Made by a program: the position numbers and the translations under genes. A stretch of 64,000 bases of DNA from positions 1 to 64,000 of the forward strand of contig CAJFUF010000002.1 in assembly GCA_904420175.1 (NCBI GenBank), read 5' to 3'. Shown here one piece after another: positions 737 to 14,065 of this stretch. A model generated the notes under the pieces. It did no database searches. It was given only the letters and a program-made list of their open reading frames with translations, and had not been told where the DNA came from. Within the stretch, counting starts at the first letter, position 1. Each line of letters begins with the position of its first letter. This DNA comes from Candidatus Schneewindia gallinarum (lineage in GTDB: Bacteria > Bacillota > Clostridia > Oscillospirales > Ruminococcaceae).

Positions 737-3169
737 TTATATGTGCCTGATAAAGCGGAAATAAAACCACTTAAGACCCGATACCTGCGACCGGCACAGG
801 CGCTGCAGACGCTGGGGGAACTGTGCCAGTTCCTTCTGCTGCTCCTTCCCAAGCGGGACGTCCGCATATTCGGCCTGCAAAATGTCCTGCATAATTTGTG
901 TGAAGGACGGGCCATCCTTTTCCAGGTCCGGGAACGCCCCATCCACCAGGCGGGCGTATTGCAGCGGGGCCGTGCCGGGCTGATACGGCCGGCCCAGCAG
1001 CCGGAACACACGCAGGCTGTACTGCTTACACACTGCAGGGGCCCTGTCGCCCTGCAGATGCTTTTCCCTGCGGCGGTCCGCCAGAACAGGGGAAAGCAAA
1101 AGCAGCAGCACAAGCACCAGTATGCCGCAGGCCACAGTGAGCCACACGGCCAGAGCGGAGGGTCCGCCGGTTTCCTGCACTGTGATGTCGTCCGGACCGT
1201 CTGCTCCGCCGGGCTGCCCCTCCGTCTGGGAGCTGGAGGACGACGATGACTCCGGCGGGGTGGAGCTGCCTTCCTGCGTCACGCTGCCGCCGGTAGGATC
1301 CGCCTCTGTCAAGCCGGCGCCGGGGGTCACCTCAAACGGAATCCAGCCGAAATTTTCAAAATACACCTCCACCCACGCGTGGGCCTGGCGGTCCGTCACG
1401 TCAAATGTGCCGGTTCCGCTGTATGAGGCGCTGACAGGCAGCACATACCCCTCCACATATCTGGCGGGGACGCCGTTCATCTTCAAAATGACCGCAACGG
1501 CAGAGGCGAAGTGAACACAGTATCCCTCATGCGACTGGAACAGGAAGTAGTCCACGAAGTCCTCCCCCTCGGGCAGCATGCCCGGCTCCAGCGAGTAGGT
1601 CGCCACTGACTGCACGTCTGTCCTTACCCTGTCCACAAACTCCGCCACGGTGTACTGCTGCTGCCAGCCCCGGTATTGGTACTGCTGCCTTGTGCGGGGG
1701 GCATAGCGAATGTCCACACCGCCGTAAGCACTTACATAGTTGGCGTACTGGTCACTCCATGTGCCGGACGGCAGGGAGGCCACCACCGTGTCAAACGCGT
1801 TGCGGTAATCCGCTGAGTGCTGGTAGTCCAGATAGGGGCTGTACTGCACAAGCCTGCCGGTCTGCGTGTCCCGCAGCAGCGTCACCGGTTCTACATAGGT
1901 GGAGTTGCCCGTGCTTTGGAACAAGTCCTGCATGAAGTTCGGATTGTAGGGGTCAAGACGCAGATAGGAGGACGAGCCGTAGGGGGTGTACCGGTACTGC
2001 CCCGGAGCGTTTACCACTTCCACACGAACTTCGTCCGTTTCCATGCTGACAGACGTGCTGCCAGACTGGATCAGCTGTTCTGTAATATACATGCCGGGAC
2101 TTGCAAAATCACGGTCCGTCTCTTGAAACATGGACAGGCTTTCCCTTTGCAGGTACGCCCTGCTTGCCGTCTGTGTCTGGTTCCACTGGTTCCCCTCATA
2201 CCGGCTGCCCACATAGGCGCGTAGGTAGTAAGGGGCTTCCACCCCGCGGGTGACGCGAAGCGCCGTTTCCCCCGTGTACTCCAGCCGGCCAATCTGTCCA
2301 AGCACACCGCCGGCAATGCCGCCGCCCGAGGTTCCCGGCACACGGAAGGGCCCGTCCGGCATTTCCCCGGAAAACAGGCTGGAAACAAAAGAAAGCGTTC
2401 CGGCGCGCAGATCCACCAGCCATCCGGCACGCTCATACTCCTCCTGTTTGAACACGCACTGGGTGAACAAAAAGCATAGGACGGAAAACAACATCAGCAA
2501 GGTTGCCGCCCCGACGGAAAGCGACGGGCCGGTTCGCCCCCGGCGAAGCCGGCGGGAGCTGGAAAACGCCGCCACGTAAAAGCTTATCAGCAAAATATAA
2601 AACAACAGGTTTTCCGGCACCAGCCCGAAGGCCAGGCCGAAAAACAGAAAGGGAGCGGTGACCAGAATACACAGCAGGCCGGATCGCGCCTGGATAAACG
2701 CCATGCCCAGCAGCAGGGATAGAACCAGGCTGACGAGAACCCAGAACAGCAGCGGAGACCCGCTTCCCACCGGCTCATAAGGAATCGCCAGGTTGGCGTA
2801 TCCGGCGCCGTTCATCACCGACGCCACACCGGCATACACCTCTATGGCGCCGGAAAACACCTGCCCGCTGAACAGCAGAATGACTGCGGTGATGCCAACG
2901 CCGGATACCAGCAGAAACGGAAAAGTCAGTTTCCTGTTCTGCCAGCACAGGGCCGACAGCAGGCACAGCGGAACAAGCAGAAGCACAAGCACCCCAAAAT
3001 CTGCCGGGAAAACGCTGAATGTACTCATAAACACGCCCAGCGCGCCAAACATCCCGGCAAACAGCAGCAGGACAGACAGCAGATAGTCTGAAAAGGAGGT
3101 CGGGCTGCCCGCCACTTCGGCCGTGAACACAAATTCCTGCCCGGCGGCAGCCTTTGCCATTTTCTTCAT
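737..3169 (-). CDS. Membrane-anchored transglutaminase-like protein
   Basis: 810 residues. The N-terminal ~240 residues contain about seven hydrophobic segments, followed by a large extracytoplasmic region with a transglutaminase core: Cys551 in HEGYCVHFA, His597 in RQAHAWVEVY, and Glu613 in PFEVTPG where the third triad residue is normally Asp. A Ser-rich linker (about 638-647) leads to another membrane helix (about 668-693) and a C-terminal cytoplasmic tail. This is the TgpA/YebA-type architecture. Third gene of a MoxR-DUF58-transglutaminase operon, a widespread triad thought to act in surface-protein or envelope processing. The actual substrate is unknown. Confidence 0.88.
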   Translation of the reverse strand: MKKMAKAAAGQEFVFTAEVAGSPTSFSDYLLSVLLLFAGMFGALGVFMSTFSVFPADFGVLVLLLVPLCLLSALCWQNRKLTFPFLLVSGVGITAVILLFSGQVFSGAIEVYAGVASVMNGAGYANLAIPYEPVGSGSPLLFWVLVSLVLSLLLGMAFIQARSGLLCILVTAPFLFFGLAFGLVPENLLFYILLISFYVAAFSSSRRLRRGRTGPSLSVGAATLLMLFSVLCFLFTQCVFKQEEYERAGWLVDLRAGTLSFVSSLFSGEMPDGPFRVPGTSGGGIAGGVLGQIGRLEYTGETALRVTRGVEAPYYLRAYVGSRYEGNQWNQTQTASRAYLQRESLSMFQETDRDFASPGMYITEQLIQSGSTSVSMETDEVRVEVVNAPGQYRYTPYGSSSYLRLDPYNPNFMQDLFQSTGNSTYVEPVTLLRDTQTGRLVQYSPYLDYQHSADYRNAFDTVVASLPSGTWSDQYANYVSAYGGVDIRYAPRTRQQYQYRGWQQQYTVAEFVDRVRTDVQSVATYSLEPGMLPEGEDFVDYFLFQSHEGYCVHFASAVAVILKMNGVPARYVEGYVLPVSASYSGTGTFDVTDRQAHAWVEVYFENFGWIPFEVTPGAGLTEADPTGGSVTQEGSSTPPESSSSSSSQTEGQPGGADGPDDITVQETGGPSALAVWLTVACGILVLVLLLLLSPVLADRRREKHLQGDRAPAVCKQYSLRVFRLLGRPYQPGTAPLQYARLVDGAFPDLEKDGPSFTQIMQDILQAEYADVPLGKEQQKELAQFPQRLQRLCRSQVSGLKWFYFRFIRHI

Positions 3170-3187
3170 GCTTTTTCCTCCTTTCCT

Positions 3188-4345
3188 TTACAGGGCCATG
3201 CCCTGCAGCACCTCGTCCACCGGCCGGTCCTCAAACGCCGTCACATTGCCCTGCTTGCCGTCACCGGGGCCAAACAGAAAAACACGCCTGCCACAGGTGG
3301 GCGGCAGGGTCTGACGCAGCCACTCCTCCGACTGGGCGGGGAAGCTGGTGGTGAAATAATACAGCTTGTCCACCCCGCGGGTGGGCTGCCTGCCCACAAA
3401 GTGAAGCAGCGCTGCGTCTTCCGCAGTGCCGCCTGCATGCAGCAGCAGACTCATGGCCTCCGGTATCTGATCCGGATCGGTAACAGTAAGTTCCCGCAGG
3501 TCCTGCAGCGCACTGTCATACCATACAAGACGGTGGGGACGCTCCGCCTCGGCCAAAAAGGAGGAGATAGAAAACAATGCGGTCAGCTCCCGGCTCAGCT
3601 GTGCGGGCTCCCCCTGGTGCAGTTCCGCCAGCAGAATGGTGCCGTCCTGGATGGGTAGGCTGAACTCTTTCACGATAAGCTCGTTCCGTTTTGTGCTGAG
3701 CTTCCAATGAATGCTTCGCTGTGGGTCGCCCGGCCGGTATTCCCGCACGCCGAACACCTCGGACGGGTCGTCGCCCGGCCGGTGCTTTGAAAACGTATCG
3801 GATTCATAATCGCCGCTTTCCTGCCTTGAAAGGGTACAGGACAGGGGCAGAACCGCCGGAAAAACCGTCAGTTCCGGCGGGGCGTTTAACAGCACGCCCT
3901 TCACCCTGAACAGGCCCAGTGCATCGTAGCAGTAGAACGAGTCTGCCGTCAGCTTCAGCCTGCCACAGCAGGCCGACTGCAAATGCAGCGTGCAGGCCGT
4001 ACTGCCGAAAGAGCGCAGACGGAAGCGAAGCTTCAGCCTGCGTTCCTGCCCGGACAGCAGGTTTTCACACCGGAAGGACAGCCGCCCCATGGACAGGGGG
4101 AGGAAGCTGCGGTTTTTCAGCCGGATGGATATCTGAAACGGCTGGCCCGCCTCTGCAATAAAATCGGCGTGTTCCGGGCACACTGCCGTTATTTTCCCGC
4201 GCAGCAGCAGGGCCTGCACCGCCAGCAGAACCGGCAGCAGCAGGGCCGCGCACAGGGTCAAAAAAGAGATGTAGTCCGCAATCATGACCATGTAGCTGAA
4301 GCACAGCGCCAGCACAACAAGATAGAGGATTCTGACACTTTTCAC
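3188..4345 (-). CDS. DUF58 domain protein
   Basis: 385 residues with two N-terminal hydrophobic segments (within residues 1-50), a beta-rich middle, and the DUF58 signature around residues 180-235: SDTFSKHRPGDDPSEV, VREYRPGD and IHWKLSTKR. The C-terminal half resembles the von Willebrand A-like fold of this family. It sits between the MoxR ATPase and the transglutaminase with gaps of 10 and 18 bp, so it is co-transcribed; DUF58 proteins are regarded as partners of MoxR ATPases. The molecular role is not established for the family. Confidence 0.9.
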   Translation of the reverse strand: MKSVRILYLVVLALCFSYMVMIADYISFLTLCAALLLPVLLAVQALLLRGKITAVCPEHADFIAEAGQPFQISIRLKNRSFLPLSMGRLSFRCENLLSGQERRLKLRFRLRSFGSTACTLHLQSACCGRLKLTADSFYCYDALGLFRVKGVLLNAPPELTVFPAVLPLSCTLSRQESGDYESDTFSKHRPGDDPSEVFGVREYRPGDPQRSIHWKLSTKRNELIVKEFSLPIQDGTILLAELHQGEPAQLSRELTALFSISSFLAEAERPHRLVWYDSALQDLRELTVTDPDQIPEAMSLLLHAGGTAEDAALLHFVGRQPTRGVDKLYYFTTSFPAQSEEWLRQTLPPTCGRRVFLFGPGDGKQGNVTAFEDRPVDEVLQGMAL

Positions 4346-4355
4346 TGGGCGCCCC

Positions 4356-5324
4356 CTACTTCATGCTGGGGACAGGCGTTTCCCTCAGGAAGTCCTCCAC
4401 CAGCTTTTCCGCACTCTGCCCGGCGACACGTGCCTTGGCAGTCAAAATCAGCCGGTGGCAGATACAGTCCGCAAACACATACTGCACATCGTCCGGGATG
4501 ACATAGTTACGGCCGTTTAACAGCGCGCAGGCCCGCGCCATGCGCAGCACGGCAATGCTGCCGCGGGGGCTGGCGCCAAGGGTCAGGTGCGGGCAACGGC
4601 GTGTTTTGTCCACCAAATCCACAATGTAGGAGAAAATTTTCCCGTCCACAAACACGCCCTTCACCGCCTGGCGCATGGACAGCACCTCATCGGCGCCCAC
4701 AATTTTCTTCACGCCGGACAACGGGTCGCCCAACGCCTTGTTTTGCAGGATTTTCGCCTCACTCTCCTTAGAGGGGTAGCCCATACTCATCCGGATCATA
4801 AAGCGGTCCATCTGCGATTCCGGCAGCATCTGGGTGCCGACGGTCCCCACCGGGTTCTGGGTGGCGATGACGATAAACGGGTCGGGTACTGCGCGGGTCA
4901 CCGCGTCCACCGTGACCTGCCCCTCCTCCATCAGTTCCAGCAGGGCGGATTGGGTTTTAGAGGATGTACGGTTGATTTCATCCGCAAGGAACAGGTTGCA
5001 GAAAGCCGCACCGGGCTTGTATTCAAACTGCTCTGTTTTTTTATTGTAGACGGTGAAGCCGGTAATGTCGCTGGGCATCACATCCGGGGTGAACTGCACA
5101 CGGTTTGCCACCAGATCCATGGACCGCGCAAACGCCATGGCGAGGGTCGTTTTTCCCACGCCGGGAATATCCTCCAGCAGGACATGCCCGCCGGCAAGAA
5201 AACTCATAAGCATTTTAACCACAACGGTGTTTTTCCCGATAACAACACCCGCCACCTGATTCAGAATATCAAGAATGGTTTTTTCATAAAGCGCGGCTTG
5301 CGCTTTGGATAGCTGTTCTGTCAT
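4356..5324 (-). CDS. MoxR-family AAA+ ATPase
   Basis: 322 residues. Walker A PGVGKTTLA (K58), Walker B LFLADEIN (D115, E116), sensor-1 region FIVIATQNP and a C-terminal lid with LGASPRGS are all present and intact. MoxR ATPases act as chaperone-like remodelers for metal insertion or complex assembly. First gene of the operon: a good ribosome site (GGAGGGTG) precedes ATG and a sigma-A type promoter lies at 5362-5390. The neighbours DUF58 and transglutaminase identify the common MoxR/DUF58/TGase envelope module. Confidence 0.93.
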   Translation of the reverse strand: MTEQLSKAQAALYEKTILDILNQVAGVVIGKNTVVVKMLMSFLAGGHVLLEDIPGVGKTTLAMAFARSMDLVANRVQFTPDVMPSDITGFTVYNKKTEQFEYKPGAAFCNLFLADEINRTSSKTQSALLELMEEGQVTVDAVTRAVPDPFIVIATQNPVGTVGTQMLPESQMDRFMIRMSMGYPSKESEAKILQNKALGDPLSGVKKIVGADEVLSMRQAVKGVFVDGKIFSYIVDLVDKTRRCPHLTLGASPRGSIAVLRMARACALLNGRNYVIPDDVQYVFADCICHRLILTAKARVAGQSAEKLVEDFLRETPVPSMK

Positions 5325-5425: not shown

Positions 5426-6127
5426 CTCTCCATTTAAAAAGCAATTCAAATTGGCAGCGGCCACCATCCCGCCCTGTCCGGAGGGCAGGCCCCAGCGGCG
5501 CTCAATCAACTTTTCAGAGCGCCGGAGCGTTCCCAGATAGTCTGCACGCTGGGTGGTTCCGGCCGCCCATGAGATGGCGTCCGGCCCGTCGCTTTCCGTT
5601 AAAATCCGGTTTAGCGGCGCATGGCGCAGAACCGGATCATCCTCCCGCGAGAAGGGGCCAAGGGTAAAATAACAGCCAAGGGCCACATAGCGGTCGATAT
5701 CCTTCGGGCAGCTGTACCAATGCACCAGATAGGTGTTGGGGAACTGTCCAATCAGTTCCAGAATGCGCCGTTCTTGCCCCTTTGTGTGCAGGATAACCGG
5801 CATGTTCCGCCGGGCGGCAAGTGCCAGCTGGTCGATAAACACCCGCTCCTGCACACAAAGGGGGACGTCGCACCACACACTGTCCAGGCCGATTTCTCCC
5901 AGTACCCGGCACCGGCCGATAAAGGGCAGCATGTCCTCCACCCGGAACCGGTCCGCCTTCCATGGATGCAGCCCAAAACTGCAGCATACCGTGGGGCAGT
6001 TCCTTGTAAGCCTCTCCGTGCGTGCCGCGTCGTCCGGGTCGGTGCCGCAGACGACGGCGGAAACCCCCGCCGCCGCAAGCAGGCGGGCAAACGCATGGCT
6101 GTGGACGTGGCAGTGCGCGTCAATCAT
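5417..6127 (-). CDS. TatD-family metal-dependent hydrolase
   Basis: 236 residues, slightly short for TatD (about 255-265). All metal-site motifs are present: DAHCH at residues 3-7, GEIGLD (bridging Glu), ILHTKG, LVHWYSC and ESDGP. The fold should be an amidohydrolase TIM barrel. The start overlaps the end of the ABC ATPase gene by 8 bp, so it is translationally coupled to a TPP-riboswitch-controlled transporter. Typical TatD proteins are 3'-5' DNA exonucleases, but this position suggests a small-molecule hydrolase acting on an imported pyrimidine or thiamine precursor; that role is an inference. Confidence 0.88.
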   Translation of the reverse strand: MIDAHCHVHSHAFARLLAAAGVSAVVCGTDPDDAARTERLTRNCPTVCCSFGLHPWKADRFRVEDMLPFIGRCRVLGEIGLDSVWCDVPLCVQERVFIDQLALAARRNMPVILHTKGQERRILELIGQFPNTYLVHWYSCPKDIDRYVALGCYFTLGPFSREDDPVLRHAPLNRILTESDGPDAISWAAGTTQRADYLGTLRRSEKLIERRWGLPSGQGGMVAAANLNCFLNGEKR

Positions 6128-6857
6128 AGCGGTGCTCCTTCAGCAGGTTGTAGATCTCCCGGCGCAGCTCATTTTTGGAAAACAGCCAGTCCCGGTCCCG
6201 GTTCTCCTCCGGCAGAACGATCTCCTTCTGGAAACCGGCGGGGCTGCCGTCCATCATTAGAATACGGTCGGACAGGTAAATGGCTTCGTCAATATCATGG
6301 GTGACCAGCACCGTGGTCCGGCCGAGGGCCGCGCGCTTCTCCTGCAGCCAGTTCTGCATATCCGCCCGTGTAATCACATCCAATGCGCCGAACGGCTCGT
6401 CCAGCAGCAGGATGTCCGCTGTGCACATGGCGGTGCGAAGAAATGCCGCCCGCTGGCGCATGCCGCCCGACAGCTGCCGGGGATAGGCGTTTTCATATCC
6501 TGCAAGGCCGAACGCCTCAAAATTGGCGGCGGCCCGCTCCCGAAAGTCCTTTCCCAGCTTCTGCACCTTGCCGTACAGGCAAACGTTGTCCAGAATTGTC
6601 AGCCACGGGAACAGCAGGTCGCTTTGCGGCATGTAGGCAAAGTGCGGTGTGACGCCGTGAATCTCCTGTCCGTCCACCTGGACACTGCCCGTCTCCGGCT
6701 TCAGCATTCCTGCCAGAATGTTTAAAAAGGTGGATTTCCCGCAGCCGGACGGGCCCAGGATGCTGACGAACTCGCCCGTTTTTACGTCCATATTCAGTTT
6801 TTCCAGTACCCGCTGCCCATCATAGGAATAGGACAGGTTTCTGACGGAAAGTTTCAC
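6120..6857 (-). CDS. thiZ: ABC transporter ATP-binding protein, HMP/thiamine precursor uptake (ThiZ-like)
   Basis: 245 residues with Walker A GPSGCGKST, the Q loop YMPQSDLL, signature LSGGMRQR, Walker B ILLLDEPFGALD and the H loop VLVTHD. It is the SsuB/TauB type of nutrient-import ATPase. It follows ThiY by 9 bp and the permease in one operon headed by a TPP riboswitch, which assigns it to uptake of hydroxymethylpyrimidine or a related thiamine precursor rather than nitrate or sulfonate. The last 8 bp overlap the TatD-like gene. Confidence 0.9.
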   Translation of the reverse strand: MKLSVRNLSYSYDGQRVLEKLNMDVKTGEFVSILGPSGCGKSTFLNILAGMLKPETGSVQVDGQEIHGVTPHFAYMPQSDLLFPWLTILDNVCLYGKVQKLGKDFRERAAANFEAFGLAGYENAYPRQLSGGMRQRAAFLRTAMCTADILLLDEPFGALDVITRADMQNWLQEKRAALGRTTVLVTHDIDEAIYLSDRILMMDGSPAGFQKEIVLPEENRDRDWLFSKNELRREIYNLLKEHRYD

Positions 6858-6866
6858 TGCAGTTCC

Positions 6867-7880
6867 CTACTCTTTAATAAATTCGTTGGTGTAGCATTCG
6901 GACGCGGCAATCTTCTTGGTGATAAGGCCATTCTCATACATAAAGTCGGTATAGTTGTCCCACACCTCGTCCTTCATCAGGCCCCAGGTCTCGCTGTCCT
7001 CGCTGTATTTGGGGCTGAGGATTTCCTGAGATTTTTCCAGCAGCTCCAAATCATAGTCCGGGACATACTTGTGAAGGATTCCCGCGGACTCCTTCGGGTT
7101 GGCGATGGCGTACTCGTATCCCTTCTTGACCGCATTCATAAAGGCCTGTACCGTCTCGGGATCCTCTTCAATCATTTTGTCGCTGGTGATGATAACCGGG
7201 GTATAGTAGTCGAGGCGGGAGTCAAACTCGCGCAGCTCCATGTAGTTTAAGTCAAAGCCGGCCATCTCCGCCTTTACGCAGTCCCATGCCTCGAAAAACC
7301 ACATGACGTCCACATCCTCCGCCAGTGCGGAAAAGCCGGAACCGTCGCTGGTGATCATCGTCAGCTTGGAGAAGTCGGCACCGACAGCCTCCATGACCGC
7401 ACGGATCACTGCCTCCTCGCCGGGGCCGCCCCAGCCGGCATACACCTTACCCTCAAAGTCCTTGGGGGAGGTGATGTTTTTGGGCGCATAGGTTGCAAAG
7501 CCGGAGGTGTTGTGCTGAATCACCGTGGCAATGGCCTTGATGGGCAGCGGATCATCGCTGGTTAAGGCATAGGTTAAGTCCTCCTGATAGCCGAGGCCGA
7601 ATTCCCCGGTGCCGTTGGCAACCAGTGTCAGGCTGTTGGAGTTGTCGCCCGGCTCCTCAATGGTGACATTCAGGCCCTCCTCCTCAAAGTAGCCCTTATC
7701 CAGCGCCACATACAGGCCTGTATGGTTGGTGTTGGGCACATAGTCCAGAACCAGTGTAACATCTTTCAGCGCAGCGGTGTCCCCGCTTTCGCTTCCGCTT
7801 CCATCCGTACTGCTGCCGCCGCAGGCCGCAAGGGACAGTGCAAGGGCGCACAGCAAGATGATACTAACGATTTTTTTCAT
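6867..7880 (-). CDS. thiY: HMP/thiamine precursor substrate-binding lipoprotein (ThiY-like, NMT1/THI5 fold)
   Basis: 337 residues from the ATG at 7880. That start gives an ATGA overlap with the permease stop and is preceded by GGAGG eight bases upstream; a longer in-frame start 15 codons earlier would lose the normal signal peptide. The N-terminus is a lipoprotein signal ending in LAAC, followed by a short Ser/Gly linker and then LDYVPNTNHTGLYVA, a hallmark of the ThiY/Thi5 HMP-binding family, with later TWGLM and WDNYTDFM segments. It should capture the pyrimidine precursor outside the membrane for ThiX/ThiZ. Confidence 0.9.
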   Translation of the reverse strand: MKKIVSIILLCALALSLAACGGSSTDGSGSESGDTAALKDVTLVLDYVPNTNHTGLYVALDKGYFEEEGLNVTIEEPGDNSNSLTLVANGTGEFGLGYQEDLTYALTSDDPLPIKAIATVIQHNTSGFATYAPKNITSPKDFEGKVYAGWGGPGEEAVIRAVMEAVGADFSKLTMITSDGSGFSALAEDVDVMWFFEAWDCVKAEMAGFDLNYMELREFDSRLDYYTPVIITSDKMIEEDPETVQAFMNAVKKGYEYAIANPKESAGILHKYVPDYDLELLEKSQEILSPKYSEDSETWGLMKDEVWDNYTDFMYENGLITKKIAASECYTNEFIKE

Positions 7881-8659
7881 ATCCTTTTCCTCCAACTGTT
7901 TTGTTTTCTTTCCCCCGGTGTGCAAATATACCGCAGCAGGCCCACAAGGCCGTTCATGGCAAGGGACAGCAGAATGACCACCACCACGGACGCGAACACC
8001 TTTTGCAGCTGGCCGCTGTTTTTGACCCGCAGCATGTAGTAGCCGAGGCCGGCTTTGGAGCTAATCCATTCGCCCACCACGGCGCCGCTGATACAGTAAG
8101 TAGCGGCGACTTTCAGCCCGGAAAACAGGCTGGGCAGCGCGGAAGGGATTTTGACCATGCGGTACTGCTTCAGTGTTCCTGCCCCAAAGGACTTTAACAG
8201 GTTCAGCTGATCGGTATTTGTCTGACCCATGGCGTCCGCAAACGGGACGACAATGGGGAAAAAGCACATCATAACCACGGTGACGATTTTGGGAAGCATG
8301 CCGAAGCCCATATAGATAATGAACAGGGGCGCCAGCACGATGACCGGGACGGTCTGCGTCACCACCAGGATGGGGTAAATGCTTGATTTAAAGTGCGGGA
8401 ACCGGTCCATCAGGATGGCCAGAATAACTGCCAGCACGGCCGCAATCACAAGGCCGATTGCCGCCTCCTCCAGGCTGACAAGCGCGTGGTAGCACAGGGT
8501 GCCCGCATCCGTAATCAGCGCAGACAGAATGCGCGAGGGGGACGGAAGTGTGTAGGACGGTATCTGGAACAGAGCCACCAGCCCCTCCCACAGGGCAATG
8601 CAGCACAGAAGCACTGCTGCCGGCAAAAGAATTTTGCTTCCCCGCTTAATTGGTTTCAT
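7877..8659 (-). CDS. thiX: ABC transporter permease, HMP/thiamine precursor uptake (ThiX-like)
   Basis: 260 residues with about six hydrophobic segments and the binding-protein-dependent permease signature (EAA-like loop) around LLKSFGAGTLKQYRMVKIP. First gene after the TPP riboswitch; the stop overlaps the ThiY start in ATGA. Together with ThiY and ThiZ it makes a complete importer, named thiX after the ThiXYZ pathway predicted for hydroxymethylpyrimidine uptake in Firmicutes. Confidence 0.9.
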   Translation of the reverse strand: MKPIKRGSKILLPAAVLLCCIALWEGLVALFQIPSYTLPSPSRILSALITDAGTLCYHALVSLEEAAIGLVIAAVLAVILAILMDRFPHFKSSIYPILVVTQTVPVIVLAPLFIIYMGFGMLPKIVTVVMMCFFPIVVPFADAMGQTNTDQLNLLKSFGAGTLKQYRMVKIPSALPSLFSGLKVAATYCISGAVVGEWISSKAGLGYYMLRVKNSGQLQKVFASVVVVILLSLAMNGLVGLLRYICTPGERKQNSWRKRI

Positions 8660-8681: not shown

Positions 8682-8822
8682 AAAAAAATACCGCATCATA
8701 TTTGATACGGTATCGAAGTTCCTTCGCAAATATGATTTCCTACGTTGGCATTACCCAAATCAGGTATAAGGGTCGAAGCTGTCAGCTTCCTCTCAGGCCG
8801 TTCACGGCCTCCCCGTTTTGTC
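8682..8822 (-). promoter_or_regulatory. TPP (THI-box) riboswitch with antiterminator/terminator
   Basis: On the minus strand the conserved TPP aptamer blocks occur in order: GGGGAGGCC, CTGAGAGGA (8796-8788), GACCCTTATACCTGAT (8774-8759) and GGGTAATGCCAACGTAGG (8756-8739). Downstream is a terminator (8713-8682: stem ATACCGTATC / GATGCGGTAT, then seven T). The ten bases at 8736-8727 are perfectly complementary to 8704-8695, part of that terminator, which makes an antiterminator that would form when TPP is absent. TPP binding should therefore switch the thiXYZ-tatD operon off by premature termination. Confidence 0.97.
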
Positions 8823-8829
8823 GAACATT

Positions 8830-8896: not shown

Positions 8897-8930
8897 AGGA
8901 AAAAGCGGCGGGCCTTCGCCTGCCGCTTTC
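8897..8930 (-). terminator. Terminator of the ftsEX operon
   Basis: Minus-strand hairpin AAAGCGGCaGGC-GAAG-GCCcGCCGCTTT followed by TTTCC, 20 bp past the stop of the S41-like gene. Confidence 0.8.
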
Positions 8931-8949: not shown

Positions 8950-10158
8950 TCACTGGGCAGTTACAAGGATTTCCAGCGCCTTGTTCAGCTGGGTGTCATT
9001 GTCGTCCGTCAGGGTGGTCATGTCTCTTTTCTGCTCGCTTGCAAGCTCCACCGTGAAGTCCAGCTTGACGCCGGTGCCGTCAAAGGAGGTGCCGCTGCCC
9101 GTCAGCAGGGTGCCCACGTTCAGCTGAATGGCGGAACCATCGTTCAGGCGATAAAACCTGCGGTAGCCGCCGTCCCCCGCGGTGGTGCTTCCCACAATTT
9201 TGCCGTAGCCCGCGTCACTGATGGCGGCGGCGAACAGCTCCCCTTCTGCCGCTGTTCCGGAACCCACCAGAACCACGGCGGAGGAAACCTCTGTCCCGGC
9301 CCCGTTGGACTCGTACAGCACTTCCTCATTCCCGTCTTTGTCCCTGTAGGAGACAAGGACACCGTCCGGCAGCAGCTTGTCCAAAACGGAGGCCGCAACC
9401 TCCAGTGAGCCGCCGCTGTTCTCACGCACATCGAATACGAAACGGCTAATCCCTTCCTGACGCATCCCCTCAAACGCGGAGATGAACTGGGACAGGGTCT
9501 GGTCGTCGAAAGTTTTAATTTTGATATACCCCACATTGTTTTCATTGCTGTCCGCAATGATGCGGGAATAGACGCTTTGGATGGTGACGTTGCGCCTTGT
9601 AAGCGTAACGGTGCTTTCCTCCGTGCCACGCCGGATGGTCAGGGTCACATTGGAGCCCACATCGCCCGCCATCAGGCTGTCGTATGTGACGCCCCCCGCA
9701 TTGGCAAGGTCCGTGTCGTTCACCTTGACAATCAGATCCTGTGCCATCAGGCCGCTTTCCTCCGCTGGGGAACCCGCGTAGACTGCGGTAATCTTGCGGT
9801 AACCGTTGGACTCCGCCACGGTCTCTATGCCGATACCCGTAATCTGTCCGGATGCCGTGGCAAGGTAGCTTGCGTAGCTGGACGCACTGTAATAGGTTCC
9901 AAGGCCGCTGCCAAGGCCGCGCATATAGCCGGCAGCAATGCTGTCGTTCAACGCCGTCTCGTCAATCGTTCCGTTTACATTGCCGCGGACAATTCCGTCC
10001 ACCTCGGCAAGCTTGGCATAGGTTGCCTCCCGCTCACTCAGGCTTTGCACCTTCTGGTTGAAGTACTGCATGGAAAACAGAATGGTGATGGAAAACGTCA
10101 CCGCCGCAGTAATTGCCATTAGGGTGGCCACTACAGCCAAAGAGATTTTTTTACCCAT
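8950..10158 (-). CDS. S41-family (CtpA/B-like) PDZ protein, predicted catalytically inactive
   Basis: 402 residues: an N-terminal membrane anchor (about 7-30), a linker domain, a PDZ domain (about 105-195) and an S41 peptidase core. In active C-terminal processing proteases the nucleophile lies in GSASASE and the base in TFGKG, with Gln four residues later. Here the matching stretches read GTAAEGE (301-307) and TTAGDGGYR (325-333), so Ser becomes Ala304, Lys becomes Asp329 and Gln becomes Arg333, while Asp315 and the fold-defining residues remain. It is the last gene of the ftsEX-hydrolase operon (24 bp after the second M23 gene), which suggests a scaffolding or regulatory role in the periplasm-like space. 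Loss of activity is predicted by alignment from memory. Confidence 0.85.
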   Translation of the reverse strand: MGKKISLAVVATLMAITAAVTFSITILFSMQYFNQKVQSLSEREATYAKLAEVDGIVRGNVNGTIDETALNDSIAAGYMRGLGSGLGTYYSASSYASYLATASGQITGIGIETVAESNGYRKITAVYAGSPAEESGLMAQDLIVKVNDTDLANAGGVTYDSLMAGDVGSNVTLTIRRGTEESTVTLTRRNVTIQSVYSRIIADSNENNVGYIKIKTFDDQTLSQFISAFEGMRQEGISRFVFDVRENSGGSLEVAASVLDKLLPDGVLVSYRDKDGNEEVLYESNGAGTEVSSAVVLVGSGTAAEGELFAAAISDAGYGKIVGSTTAGDGGYRRFYRLNDGSAIQLNVGTLLTGSGTSFDGTGVKLDFTVELASEQKRDMTTLTDDNDTQLNKALEILVTAQ

Positions 10159-10182: not shown

Positions 10183-11307
10183 TTAAGAGTATTTTACAAA
10201 GTTCAGCGGGTTGGTGCGCACCTTGTTCTCATACACTTCAAAGTGCAGGTGCGGGCCGGTCACACGCCCGGTAGCACCAACCAGCGCAATCGTATCCCCC
10301 TTTTGCACGGTCTGTCCGGCTGTCACAAGAATTTTGCTGCAATGCCCGTACAGCGTATAGTTTCCGCCGCCGTGGTCAATCAGCAGATAATAGCCGTAGC
10401 CGGAGTTATAGTAGCGTACATACTTGACAACGCCGGAGTTGGCCGCCACCATGGGCGTGCCGGTGGGCGCCGGAATGTCGATGCCGGTGTGGACATCCCT
10501 CACACCGTTGATGTTGCGAACCTCTCCATAATAGGAGCTGATATTACCATAGCCCGGGACCGGCCAGCGCATACCGCCGCCCACATAGTCCCCGTTGGAC
10601 TGGCTTTCGTTAATTAGCCTTTGGATTTCCGCAGCGGCAGCGGCCATCTCCCTTGCGATCTGCTGTTTTTCCTGTGTCAGCTGATCGTTGGATGCGCTGA
10701 GCTGGGCAATAATATTCTGGCTTTCCGCCTTTTTGGTGTTCAGCGTCTCCTGCTCGGACGCAAGCTGATCCCGCGTTGCCTCCAAAGATTCCTTACTGGC
10801 CTCAATCTGTTTTAACTGTTCGGTCAGGGAGTCAATCAGTTCCTTGTCGCTTCTTGTTATGCGCAGAAAATACTCCGAAGAAGAAAGAAACTCCGAAATA
10901 CTTCCGCTGGTCAGCAGGATATTCAGCATCGACTGCTTGGGCGTCATATAATTGGCGCGCACACGTTGCTTAAACAGCTCATACTTTTCGTCATATTCGG
11001 CATTCATCTGCGCGAGCTGGGCGTCCAGATCGCTGAGCTGCTTCGCACACAAGTCCACCTTTTGCTGAAGGACATTGATCTGTTCATTTAAATCGGCAAT
11101 ATATTCCTGCTGCTTGCTGGAGTTGTTTTTGTTTGCCTCGATCTTCTGCTGCAGCTCTTTATTTTTTTCCTCCAAATCCTCATACTTCTGCTGCCAATCG
11201 TCCAGCGAGGAGGCAGAGGCAGGAAAAGAGATAAGCACGCAGCCGATGAGCAGCGCCAGTGCAAGGCATAAGCTTAAAATCCTAGCAGTTGTTGCATGGT
11301 GTCGCAT
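10183..11307 (-). CDS. Coiled-coil M23 peptidase, EnvC/LytM type (second copy)
   Basis: 374 residues from the ATG at 11307, which starts the signal peptide (MRHHATTARILSL, cleavage near FPASA); a start nine codons earlier is possible. A long coiled coil (roughly 30-240) is followed by a LytM/M23 domain with all zinc and catalytic positions present: HTGID, LYGHCSK and GPHLHFEV. It is thus likely an active murein endopeptidase rather than a degenerate activator like E. coli EnvC. It is closely similar to the preceding gene, from which it is separated by only 27 bp, so the pair arose by tandem duplication. FtsEX is the expected regulator. Confidence 0.9.
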   Translation of the reverse strand: MRHHATTARILSLCLALALLIGCVLISFPASASSLDDWQQKYEDLEEKNKELQQKIEANKNNSSKQQEYIADLNEQINVLQQKVDLCAKQLSDLDAQLAQMNAEYDEKYELFKQRVRANYMTPKQSMLNILLTSGSISEFLSSSEYFLRITRSDKELIDSLTEQLKQIEASKESLEATRDQLASEQETLNTKKAESQNIIAQLSASNDQLTQEKQQIAREMAAAAAEIQRLINESQSNGDYVGGGMRWPVPGYGNISSYYGEVRNINGVRDVHTGIDIPAPTGTPMVAANSGVVKYVRYYNSGYGYYLLIDHGGGNYTLYGHCSKILVTAGQTVQKGDTIALVGATGRVTGPHLHFEVYENKVRTNPLNFVKYS

Positions 11308-11334
11308 GGTTTTCCGTTCCCTTTCCTGTCCCAT

Positions 11335-12462
11335 TTAGGAGTATTTAACATAGTTGAGCGGGTTGGTGCGCACCTTGTTGACATACACTTCAAAGTGCAG
11401 GTGCGGACCGGTTACACGCCCGGTGGCGCCAACCAGTGCGATGGTCTGGCCCTTTGTTACAGTCTGCCCCGCAGAGACCAGGATTTTGCTTGTGTGGGCA
11501 TACAGGGTGTAGTAGCCGTCGCCATGGTCGATTAGCAGATGGTAGCCGTAACCCGTGGTATTATAGCGGACATATTTGACAACACCGGAGTTGGCCGCCA
11601 CAATCGGCGTGCCAGTGGAAGCCGGGATGTCGATACCGGTATGTACGTCCTGCACGCCGGCAATATTACGGTCCTCATTATAATAAGAGGAGATGTAGCT
11701 GTGTCCGGGCAGCGGCCAGATAAGCGGCCCGCCCACATAGCTGCCGCTGGACTGGCTTTCATTGATCAGCCGCTGAATTTCATTTGCAGCGGCGGCCATC
11801 TCCTTTGCAACCTGCTCCTTCTCGCTGGCAAGCTGGGAATTGGAGCTGTTTAGCTGGGAGATGATGTTCTGGCTCTCCGTCTTTTTGGTGTTAAGGGACG
11901 CCTGCTCGGATGCAAGCTGATCCCGGGTACTCTCCACCTCGGTTTTGCGCTGCTCAATTTCTGTAAGCTGCTCAGTCAGGGAGGTGATCAGTTCCTTATC
12001 GCTTTTCGTAATACGCAGAAAATACTCCGAGGAGGAAAGAAATTCCGAAATGCTTCCGCTGGTCAGCAGAATACTCAGCAGCGACTGCTTGGGCGCCATG
12101 TAGTTGGCGCGTACACGCTGCTTGAACAGCTCGTACTTTTCATCATACTCGGCATTCATCTGCGCAAGCTGGGTGTCCAGCTCGCTAAGCTGCTTTGCAC
12201 ACAAGTCCACCTTTTGCTGAAGGACATTGATCTGCTCGTTCAAGTCGGCAATATATTCCTTCTGCTTGTTGGCGTTGTTTTTGTTTGCATCAATCTGCTG
12301 CTGCAGCTGCTTGTTCTTCTCTTCCAGTTCATCATATTTTTCCTGCCAGTCGCTGACCGTTGCCGCACTGGCAGGAAATGCAGCCAGGGCACAGGCCGCA
12401 ACCAGCACCAGTGCAAGGCACAGGCTGAGTGCACGAAGCACCGCACGTTTTTTATTCCTCAT
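11335..12462 (-). CDS. Coiled-coil M23 peptidase, EnvC/LytM type (first copy)
   Basis: 375 residues: signal peptide (cleavage near FPASAATV), coiled coil (about 35-245) with the FtsEX-responsive arrangement seen in PcsB/CwlO/EnvC proteins, then an M23 domain with HTGID, LYAHTSK and GPHLHFEV, all consistent with a zinc endopeptidase that cuts cross-linked peptidoglycan. RBS GGAGGGG precedes the ATG. It directly follows ftsX (20 bp). The gene is a paralogue of the next one, with the same coiled-coil layout and nearly the same catalytic domain. Confidence 0.92.
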   Translation of the reverse strand: MRNKKRAVLRALSLCLALVLVAACALAAFPASAATVSDWQEKYDELEEKNKQLQQQIDANKNNANKQKEYIADLNEQINVLQQKVDLCAKQLSELDTQLAQMNAEYDEKYELFKQRVRANYMAPKQSLLSILLTSGSISEFLSSSEYFLRITKSDKELITSLTEQLTEIEQRKTEVESTRDQLASEQASLNTKKTESQNIISQLNSSNSQLASEKEQVAKEMAAAANEIQRLINESQSSGSYVGGPLIWPLPGHSYISSYYNEDRNIAGVQDVHTGIDIPASTGTPIVAANSGVVKYVRYNTTGYGYHLLIDHGDGYYTLYAHTSKILVSAGQTVTKGQTIALVGATGRVTGPHLHFEVYVNKVRTNPLNYVKYS

Positions 12463-12482: not shown

Positions 12483-13388
12483 CTACACTTTTAAATGCTT
12501 TCGGACTGAGAAATAGCTGGACAGAATGCCGGTCAGCACGCCCACCACTGAAAAGACGACCGCCAGCATGGGCAGCATGCTCCACTCCGACACGAAGGAG
12601 CTGAAACCGGAACCCAGAATGGCAAAGTCGGATTCCTCAAGCCAGCCCAGCAGGAGGTGGTAACCGCCCAGGCACACGGCAAGGGACAGAATGGACGACA
12701 TGATGCCGATAAGCCCGCCCTCCACAATAAAGGGAATGCGGATGAAGCTGTCCGTCGCGCCCACGTATTTCATGATATTGATTTCCTTGCGCCGTGCAAA
12801 CACCGTCAGCCGGATGGTGTTTGCGATAATGACAAAGGCCACCACCGTTAAGACCACGGCAAGGATGATGCCGATGGATGAGACGATATTCCGCACGGAG
12901 ACCAGCGCATCGGCAAATTTCTGCGGGGCGTCCACTTGATAGACCCCCTCTATTGCCTCCAGCTGCGCTTTGACCTCCGCCATTTGGGACACGTCCTGCA
13001 GCCTTACTACAAAGGAGTTGGGAAGGATATTATCCTCCTCGAAGCCGTCCAGCAGGTAGGCATCGTCCCCCAGCTGTTCCCGCTGGGATTGCAGCGCCTC
13101 CTCCTTGGAAACAAAGCGGAGTTCACTGATGCCGCCGACAGTCTGAATCTGCGACTCAATGGTGGAGATGCCGGCCTCGTCCACATCGTCGTTGATATAT
13201 ACAACAATCTCATTCTGATCTTCCACGTAGCCCACCAGGCTGGCCACGTTTTCGGCAAACATAACCGCCGCGCCCACCAGCACAAGGCAGGCGGACAGCA
13301 CGCCGATGGAAGCAAGGGTCATATACTTGTTCGCCCACAGATTGCGGTAACCCTCCTTCAGGAGGTATTTCAAGACACTTCCGTTCAT
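12483..13388 (-). CDS. ftsX: Cell-division ABC transporter permease FtsX
   Basis: 301 residues from ATG 13388, chosen because it forms ATGA with the ftsE stop. Topology is that of FtsX: one N-terminal helix (about 20-42), an extracytoplasmic domain (about 45-170) containing EIVVYINDD and NSFVVRL, then three helices with the conserved VFARRKEINIMKYVGA loop. FtsX transmits ATP hydrolysis by FtsE to extracellular murein hydrolases; the two downstream M23 proteins are the obvious partners. Confidence 0.96.
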   Translation of the reverse strand: MNGSVLKYLLKEGYRNLWANKYMTLASIGVLSACLVLVGAAVMFAENVASLVGYVEDQNEIVVYINDDVDEAGISTIESQIQTVGGISELRFVSKEEALQSQREQLGDDAYLLDGFEEDNILPNSFVVRLQDVSQMAEVKAQLEAIEGVYQVDAPQKFADALVSVRNIVSSIGIILAVVLTVVAFVIIANTIRLTVFARRKEINIMKYVGATDSFIRIPFIVEGGLIGIMSSILSLAVCLGGYHLLLGWLEESDFAILGSGFSSFVSEWSMLPMLAVVFSVVGVLTGILSSYFSVRKHLKV

Positions 13389-14065
13389 TGTGCCCCCCAA
13401 TCCGCGCTGTCGCCGGCAATGGAGCCCCCATCGATAACGATAATGCGCTTGTCGAACTTGCTGACCAGCTCATGCTCGTGGGTAACCACAAGGATGGTGG
13501 TGCCGCGCCGGTTGATGTCGCACAGCAGTTCCAGTATTTCAAAGGACAATTCCGGGTCAATGTTGCCGGTGGGCTCGTCCGCGATCAGCAGGGACGGCCT
13601 GTTGGCAAGGGCGCGCGCCAGCGCCACACGCTGCAGCTCGCCTCCGGAAATCTCGTGCGGGAAGTTTTTCGCCTTCCTCGCAAGGCCCACCTGGGCCAGT
13701 ACCTCCGGCACACGCTTTCTCACATCCCGTGTCAGTGCGCCGGTTACACGCATGGCAAACGCCACATTGTCATACACATTCATGGTAGGGATCAGGCGGA
13801 AGTCCTGAAAGACAATCCCCATGCTGCGGCGCAACATGGGTACCTTCTTCCTTGGAAGGCCCGGCATTTTAAAACCGTTGACCTCCACCGTACCCTTCGT
13901 CGGCGTCAATTCCGCCAGAATCAGTTTCAGAAACGTACTTTTCCCCGCGCCGGACGGCCCCAGAATAAAGGCAAACTCGCCCGTTCCTACCGTCAGGTTC
14001 ACATCCTTCAGCGCGCAGGTCCCATTGGGATAGGTCATGGATACCCCACGAAAACTAATCAACAC
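13385..14065 (-). CDS. ftsE: Cell-division ABC transporter ATPase FtsE
   Basis: 226 residues with Walker A GPSGAGKST, signature ISGGELQR, Walker B LLIADEPTGN and the H loop VVTHEH, plus the FtsE-typical GIVFQDFRLIP. The start is GTG at 14065, preceded by AAGGGCGG. It energises FtsX; both lie at the head of a five-gene operon with two M23 hydrolases and an S41-like protein. The 60-bp gap to the upstream regulator gene contains no clear terminator. Confidence 0.96.
   Translation of the reverse strand: MLISFRGVSMTYPNGTCALKDVNLTVGTGEFAFILGPSGAGKSTFLKLILAELTPTKGTVEVNGFKMPGLPRKKVPMLRRSMGIVFQDFRLIPTMNVYDNVAFAMRVTGALTRDVRKRVPEVLAQVGLARKAKNFPHEISGGELQRVALARALANRPSLLIADEPTGNIDPELSFEILELLCDINRRGTTILVVTHEHELVSKFDKRIIVIDGGSIAGDSADWGAQ

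Follow-up and report, generated by a model that had tools for sequence, protein, structure and literature searches.

Bacterial C-terminal processing proteases are known regulators of wall hydrolases, which they control by degradation. In the stretch of DNA analysed here (64,000 nucleotides, hereafter the window), a gene of protease family S41 lies at the end of an ftsEX operon and encodes a protein in which every residue of the catalytic triad is replaced, and the locus raises the question of what such a protein does beside a murein-hydrolase system once the residues needed for cutting are gone.

An S41 protein with a replaced triad in an ftsEX-M23 operon

The operon reads ftsE-ftsX-M23-M23-S41, all on the minus strand, and encodes the FtsE ATPase (13385-14065, NCBIfam FtsE above cut-off), an FtsX with its extracellular domain present (12483-13400, NCBIfam FtsX_Gpos above cut-off), two M23 peptidases in tandem and, as the last gene, the S41 protein (8950-10158). 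Pfam and alignment showed the catalytic residues intact in both peptidases, the first with a coiled coil (11335-12462) and the second of LytM type with a PcsB-like coiled coil and the catalytic H..D and H.H motifs (10183-11334). The last three genes are separated by gaps of 0 and 24 bp, the latter between the second M23 gene and the S41 gene, which follows directly on the same strand, and a 12-bp hairpin immediately after the S41 stop codon (8902-8929, a pattern match only) possibly marks the operon end. This gene order confirms the S41 gene as a true member of the ftsEX-M23 operon, where the preliminary description of the locus had placed it. The arrangement is not peculiar to this genome: a same-strand M23 gene was found for 125 of 143 homologues, mostly adjacent to the S41 gene, and the order ftsX-M23-S41 occurs in other families of the class too. 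A degenerate M23 partner was ruled out, as the M23 motifs are intact here and in all 125 neighbouring M23 proteins found. The two tandem peptidases (10183-12462) are much alike, both having PcsB-type coiled coils and intact metal ligands.

The S41 reading frame (complement of 8950-10158) starts with ATG, comprises 402 codons and is free of frameshifts. Its triad columns were read from alignments, first with 30 homologues and later with about 150, and show A304, D329 and R333 where most others have S, K and Q. The nucleophile motif is GTAAEGE (residues 301-307, 9238-9258), with Ala304 for Ser; the lysine motif is TTAGDG (residues 325-330, 9169-9186), with Asp329 for Lys; and Arg333 (9160-9162) takes the place of the triad Gln, exactly as first read from the sequence. 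Sequencing error or frameshift was ruled out because the differences fall in three independent codons, spread over two motifs, of an intact frame. The triad of Bacillus subtilis CtpB is Ser309/Lys334/Gln338, and its S309A and Q338E mutants are inactive, Q338E alone being sufficient (PMC3808539); in Helicobacter pylori CtpA, S300A alone abolishes activity (PMC12749690). Judged from these positions, the window protein is almost surely catalytically inactive.

The fold of CtpB is retained

Both domains score above their Pfam cut-offs, PDZ with 41.8 bits (PF17820, cut-off 27) and Peptidase_S41 with 120.3 bits (PF03572, cut-off 24), which places the protein in Pfam family S41; with the narrower NCBIfam model TIGR00225 (prc) it reaches 178.6 bits and stays below the cut-off of 218.6. 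An AlphaFold2 model built from an alignment of 75 orthologues had a mean pLDDT of 92.8 and a pTM of 0.84. Its best structural matches were open forms of CtpB (Z 34.9-36.1, 352 residues aligned), followed by the CtpA proteins of Pseudomonas aeruginosa and H. pylori. A matched structure (Z 30.4) was the H. pylori CtpA triple mutant S300A/K325A/Q329A, built deliberately to disable the triad (PMC12749690) and nevertheless folded, so that the loss of all three triad residues is compatible with the fold.

Three parts can be distinguished. Residues 1-104 (9847-10158, minus strand) comprise, in the model, a transmembrane segment that runs straight into the N-terminal dimerisation helix as a single helix (residues 7-60), and a second N-terminal helix, together forming a dimerisation part of CtpB type. 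Residues 105-190 (9589-9846, minus strand) form the PDZ domain, with an intact G-I-G-I carboxylate-binding loop, which Pfam, the model and the structural match all place between the N-terminal helices and the core, as in active C-terminal processing proteases. The S41 core, almost surely catalytically dead, occupies residues 191-402 (8953-9588, minus strand; Pfam and alignment). The window protein is thus predicted to be a membrane-anchored S41 protein of the CtpB/CtpA fold and, having lost its catalytic residues while keeping the modelled fold, it qualifies as a putative pseudoprotease. The alignment and modelling that the preliminary description had proposed therefore support both its pseudoprotease reading and its statement that PDZ domain, fold signature and reading frame are intact.

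Recurrent loss of the catalytic serine within one family

A family-wide search yielded, among the matches listed, 136 ftsEX-linked S41 proteins from the taxonomic family of the window genome. The question whether related ftsEX-linked proteins share the substitutions can be answered positively: the catalytic Ser is lost in 44 of the 136, spread over 33 of 97 genera, and four genera hold both states. The residue in its place is Gly in 24 proteins, Cys in 6, Ala in 5, Tyr in 5, Arg in 2, Phe in 1 and Gln in 1. A sample of 40 proteins from other families of the class showed no loss of the Ser and one loss of the Gln, and the concentration of Ser loss in one family is clear in this sample (Fisher p = 4e-6, from raw counts nearly identical to these and with kinship ignored). 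Given that the Ser persists in close outgroups and in other families, the Ser-less states were read as losses.

Trees and pair counts were based on one genome per species, and the trees were built after removal of the motif columns. The IQ-TREE tree required 18 changes of Ser state, at least 14 of them forced by well-supported branches; an earlier FastTree run scoring any triad loss gave 19 changes, 12 of them forced. In these trees the row nearest to the window protein by path is a Cys-type protein, reached over weak branches. On independent branches, Ser loss is accompanied by loss of the cleft motif N-x-G-G (sign test, median p = 0.008) and of the Lys (p = 0.03). Among the 144 tree rows, 23 lack both Ser and Lys, 21 lack the Ser and keep the Lys, and a single protein has lost the Lys with the Ser kept, which suggests from sequence that the Ser goes first. 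A convergent change of Tyr327 to Ala in Ser-less proteins was also considered and rejected, its raw counts being suggestive and its independent pairs not significant (median p = 0.07). Six orthologues (L020, L089, L099, L110, L114 and L143) have Cys for the nucleophile Ser, five of these retaining the triad Lys and Gln, and they could be Cys-Lys enzymes rather than dead proteins.

Purifying selection and regional constraint after serine loss

The best Ser-less sister pairs gave dN/dS values of 0.020 (dS 1.0), 0.049 and 0.033; dS was saturated in the latter two. In Ser-less pairs of greater divergence, where dS is unreliable, the ratio ranged from 0.07 to 0.34, and in Ser-retaining pairs from 0.03 to 0.14. 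On these estimates the Ser-less sister proteins are under strong purifying selection and, as a class, retained after the loss. No congener of the window genome for a direct estimate was found in the genus search or the named genome collection; the identity of the window protein to active orthologues lies, for each domain, well within the Ser-less range.

Next, we compared mean pairwise identities of distant pairs by region. Between Ser-retaining and Ser-less sets the transmembrane segment (0.44 and 0.44) and the N-terminal helices (0.38 and 0.38) are equally conserved, whereas identity falls in the PDZ domain (0.38 to 0.33) and in the S41 core (0.45 to 0.35). The partner proteins show no drop between genomes of the two kinds, neither FtsX (0.37 and 0.40) nor the M23 catalytic domain (0.53 and 0.52), indicating that the fall is confined to the domains of the protease. 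Region-specific rates within genera, for which few pairs exist, did not differ significantly.

These data bear on the possibility that the protein is a dead relic, left from a time when FtsEX needed a linked protease and now decaying toward loss of its gene. Several near-complete genomes of the family have ftsEX-M23 and no S41 gene at all, so the S41 protein is a dispensable accessory and not a core part, and the relaxed core of the Ser-less proteins would fit decay. So would the window protein itself, which differs at about four positions that hardly vary otherwise (D84, P293, N299 and T347; columns 202-205 and 292, insertion columns with gaps in most homologues, were left out) and sits on a long branch. 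However, decay does not predict dN/dS values of 0.02-0.05 in the best sister pairs, long open frames with no internal stop listed among the in-family Ser-less genes, or an N-terminal module, FtsX and M23 that are as conserved in the Ser-less set as in the other. We therefore consider a relic unlikely, although the gene can be lost altogether in some lineages and retained for long in others.

Equally unlikely in our judgement is a decoy, in which the dead tunnel and the PDZ domain would hold the C-termini of M23 or other wall proteins uncut and so shield or sequester them. It draws on the retained PDZ domain with its G-I-G-I loop, on the fact that active C-terminal processing proteases target wall hydrolases, e.g. 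P. aeruginosa CtpA (PMC6050968), and on the closer resemblance of the model to peptide-bound open CtpB than to the closed form (Z 36 and 26), but the open state chosen by AlphaFold proves nothing. The M23 C-terminal tails vary between genomes and share no final residues; the substrate-sensor Arg168 of CtpB corresponds to Ala164 in the window protein and is variable across the whole family; and constraint falls in the PDZ domain and core of Ser-less proteins while that on the membrane part does not. The mode of action first proposed for this protein, binding of C-termini through PDZ, is not supported by the same observations, with constraint best kept in the transmembrane and N-helical part, less in PDZ and least in the core. 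The septal site of action in that proposal is likewise tentative, B. subtilis FtsEX-CwlO acting in elongation (PMC6705773). Taken together, the regional identities, the loss of N-x-G-G, the variable Arg168 position and the unconserved M23 C-termini suggest a function that relies chiefly on the membrane/N-helical module and to a lesser degree on PDZ.

Genomes with and without a second S41 protein

A third alternative is that the protein regulates an active S41 protein of the same cell, as a heterodimer partner or dominant-negative subunit. The window genome (1.77 Mb, 86.7% complete) does encode a second S41 protein on another contig (C31, locus L001, 865-2313), with an intact S-K-Q triad, a PDZ domain and a C-terminal PG_binding_1 domain, and this is a candidate active CtpB-like protease. 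It is, however, distant from the ftsEX-linked protein (26% identity) and differs from it in its C-terminal domain. Moreover, in 34 of the 44 Ser-less genomes, 21 of these 34 being at least 95% complete, the dead protein is the only S41 protein among the matches listed and so has no active sister to modulate. These gene counts, to which the window genome is an exception, mostly exclude the regulation of an active paralogue, and we regard it as improbable for the window protein. Still less probable is an enzyme with a displaced catalytic group: the Cys-type relatives could in principle react, but the triad positions of the window protein hold Ala, Asp and Arg, and replacing one residue suffices to kill CtpB (Q338E, PMC3808539) or H. 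pylori CtpA (S300A, PMC12749690).

The gene content of these genomes offered some further observations. CtpB acts in sporulation. A link between Ser loss and loss of sporulation was ruled out, as nearly all genomes, whether Ser-less or Ser-retaining, carry spoIVA (76 of 80 tested). The window genome (G000) gave no spoIVA match, and either the organism is non-sporulating or the gene is missing from the 87% complete assembly. Two genomes (G062 and G156, loci L249 and L250) have ftsX with no M23 or S41 gene after it within the stretch examined, and their FtsEX may work with other partners. Another genome (G144) carries a tandem array of S41-domain genes with frames of 568-654 codons (contig C1, 210322-221200) and further copies elsewhere, 11 S41 matches in all.

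A probable non-proteolytic accessory of FtsEX

The reading that we prefer, with a probability of roughly 0.55, sees in the window protein a catalytically inactive CtpB relative, anchored in the membrane, which assists the FtsEX-M23 murein-hydrolase complex as an accessory and not by proteolysis. The ftsEX-linked S41 protein of this family would have a task for which it need not cleave peptide bonds. Degradation of hydrolases is a plausible ancestral function, which would now be lost in the Ser-less lineages: catalysis would have been dropped and the membrane/N-helical module kept for dimerisation and possibly as a docking site, in or beside the membrane, for FtsX or the M23 coiled coils, with the peptide-binding PDZ domain and tunnel kept too, more weakly. 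The protein would likely work as a dimer, a scaffold or cofactor by which the M23 enzymes are tuned or localised, in a role comparable to that of SweD with B. subtilis FtsX. We infer this FtsEX cofactor role from the operon and the pattern of constraint, and the transmembrane part might have been retained for anchoring alone. Against the reading stand the lineages that do without any S41 gene beside ftsEX-M23, and the second, intact S41 protein of the window genome. More tentatively, and with somewhat less than even confidence, we extend the proposal to the whole family, in which the ftsEX-linked S41 protein would have a second, proteolysis-independent role as membrane cofactor of FtsEX-M23, catalysis having been discarded independently at least a dozen times and many cells left without any active S41 protein.

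Among systems already described, B. subtilis CtpB (PDB 4c2c/4c2f/4c2g) is the nearest in structure, sharing the fold, the PDZ domain and the N-terminal dimerisation helices, but it has a larger C-terminal dimerisation domain where the window protein has a short helix, an intact triad where all three residues are replaced here, and SpoIVFA as its substrate (PMC3808539). P. aeruginosa CtpA-LbcA and Escherichia coli Prc-NlpI likewise involve S41 proteins with PDZ domains working on peptidoglycan hydrolases (PMC6050968, PMC5686067); unlike the window protein these are active proteases, which break the hydrolases down with the help of a lipoprotein adaptor, and in the window operon no adaptor gene was seen and catalysis is predicted to be absent. 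The closest likeness in the proposed role is to SweD and SweC of B. subtilis FtsEX-CwlO, membrane accessories of FtsEX and a wall hydrolase, of which SweD contacts FtsX through its transmembrane segment as a cofactor in a complex that acts in elongation (PMC6705773); SweD and SweC are nevertheless different proteins with intracellular domains. Clostridioides difficile CspC and CspA are, according to two reports (PMC6636752, PMC12880746), bacterial pseudoproteases controlling cortex hydrolysis in germination and, unlike the window protein, belong to the subtilisin family and act by another mechanism on spore germination. The interphotoreceptor retinoid-binding protein (IRBP/RBP3) appeared among both the structure and the sequence matches and shares the S41 fold; it differs in being an animal ligand carrier built of repeated modules, with no bacterial operon context. 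IRBP is an S41 relative that is not known to be proteolytic.

The S41 fold and family are already known, as are pseudoproteases in other families, including iRhoms and CspC/CspA. In the open-access literature we found no report that links S41 pseudoproteases with ftsEX operons or describes their repeated origin. Many natural dead versions, kept in an ftsEX-M23 operon in genomes without an active copy, must do something besides cutting, and the finding points to an unrecognised accessory of FtsEX. Where one genus contains both active and dead orthologues, such natural pairs offer a direct route to separate scaffolding from proteolytic roles.

Neighbouring transcription units

The next transcription unit, also on the minus strand, begins with a perfect sigma-70 consensus promoter (TTGACA-17-TATAAT, 8858-8830, a pattern match), downstream of which lies a TPP riboswitch (8719-8825, 57.1 bits). 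The genes that follow (6120-8659) encode an ABC permease, a binding protein of NMT1/THI5 type and an ATPase, and make this a transporter unit for a thiamine precursor. Further on, a minus-strand run (737-5324) comprises a MoxR-like ATPase by eye (4356-5324), a gene that is DUF58-like by eye (3188-4345) and a transglutaminase-like protein with a TgpA-type N-terminus (737-3169).
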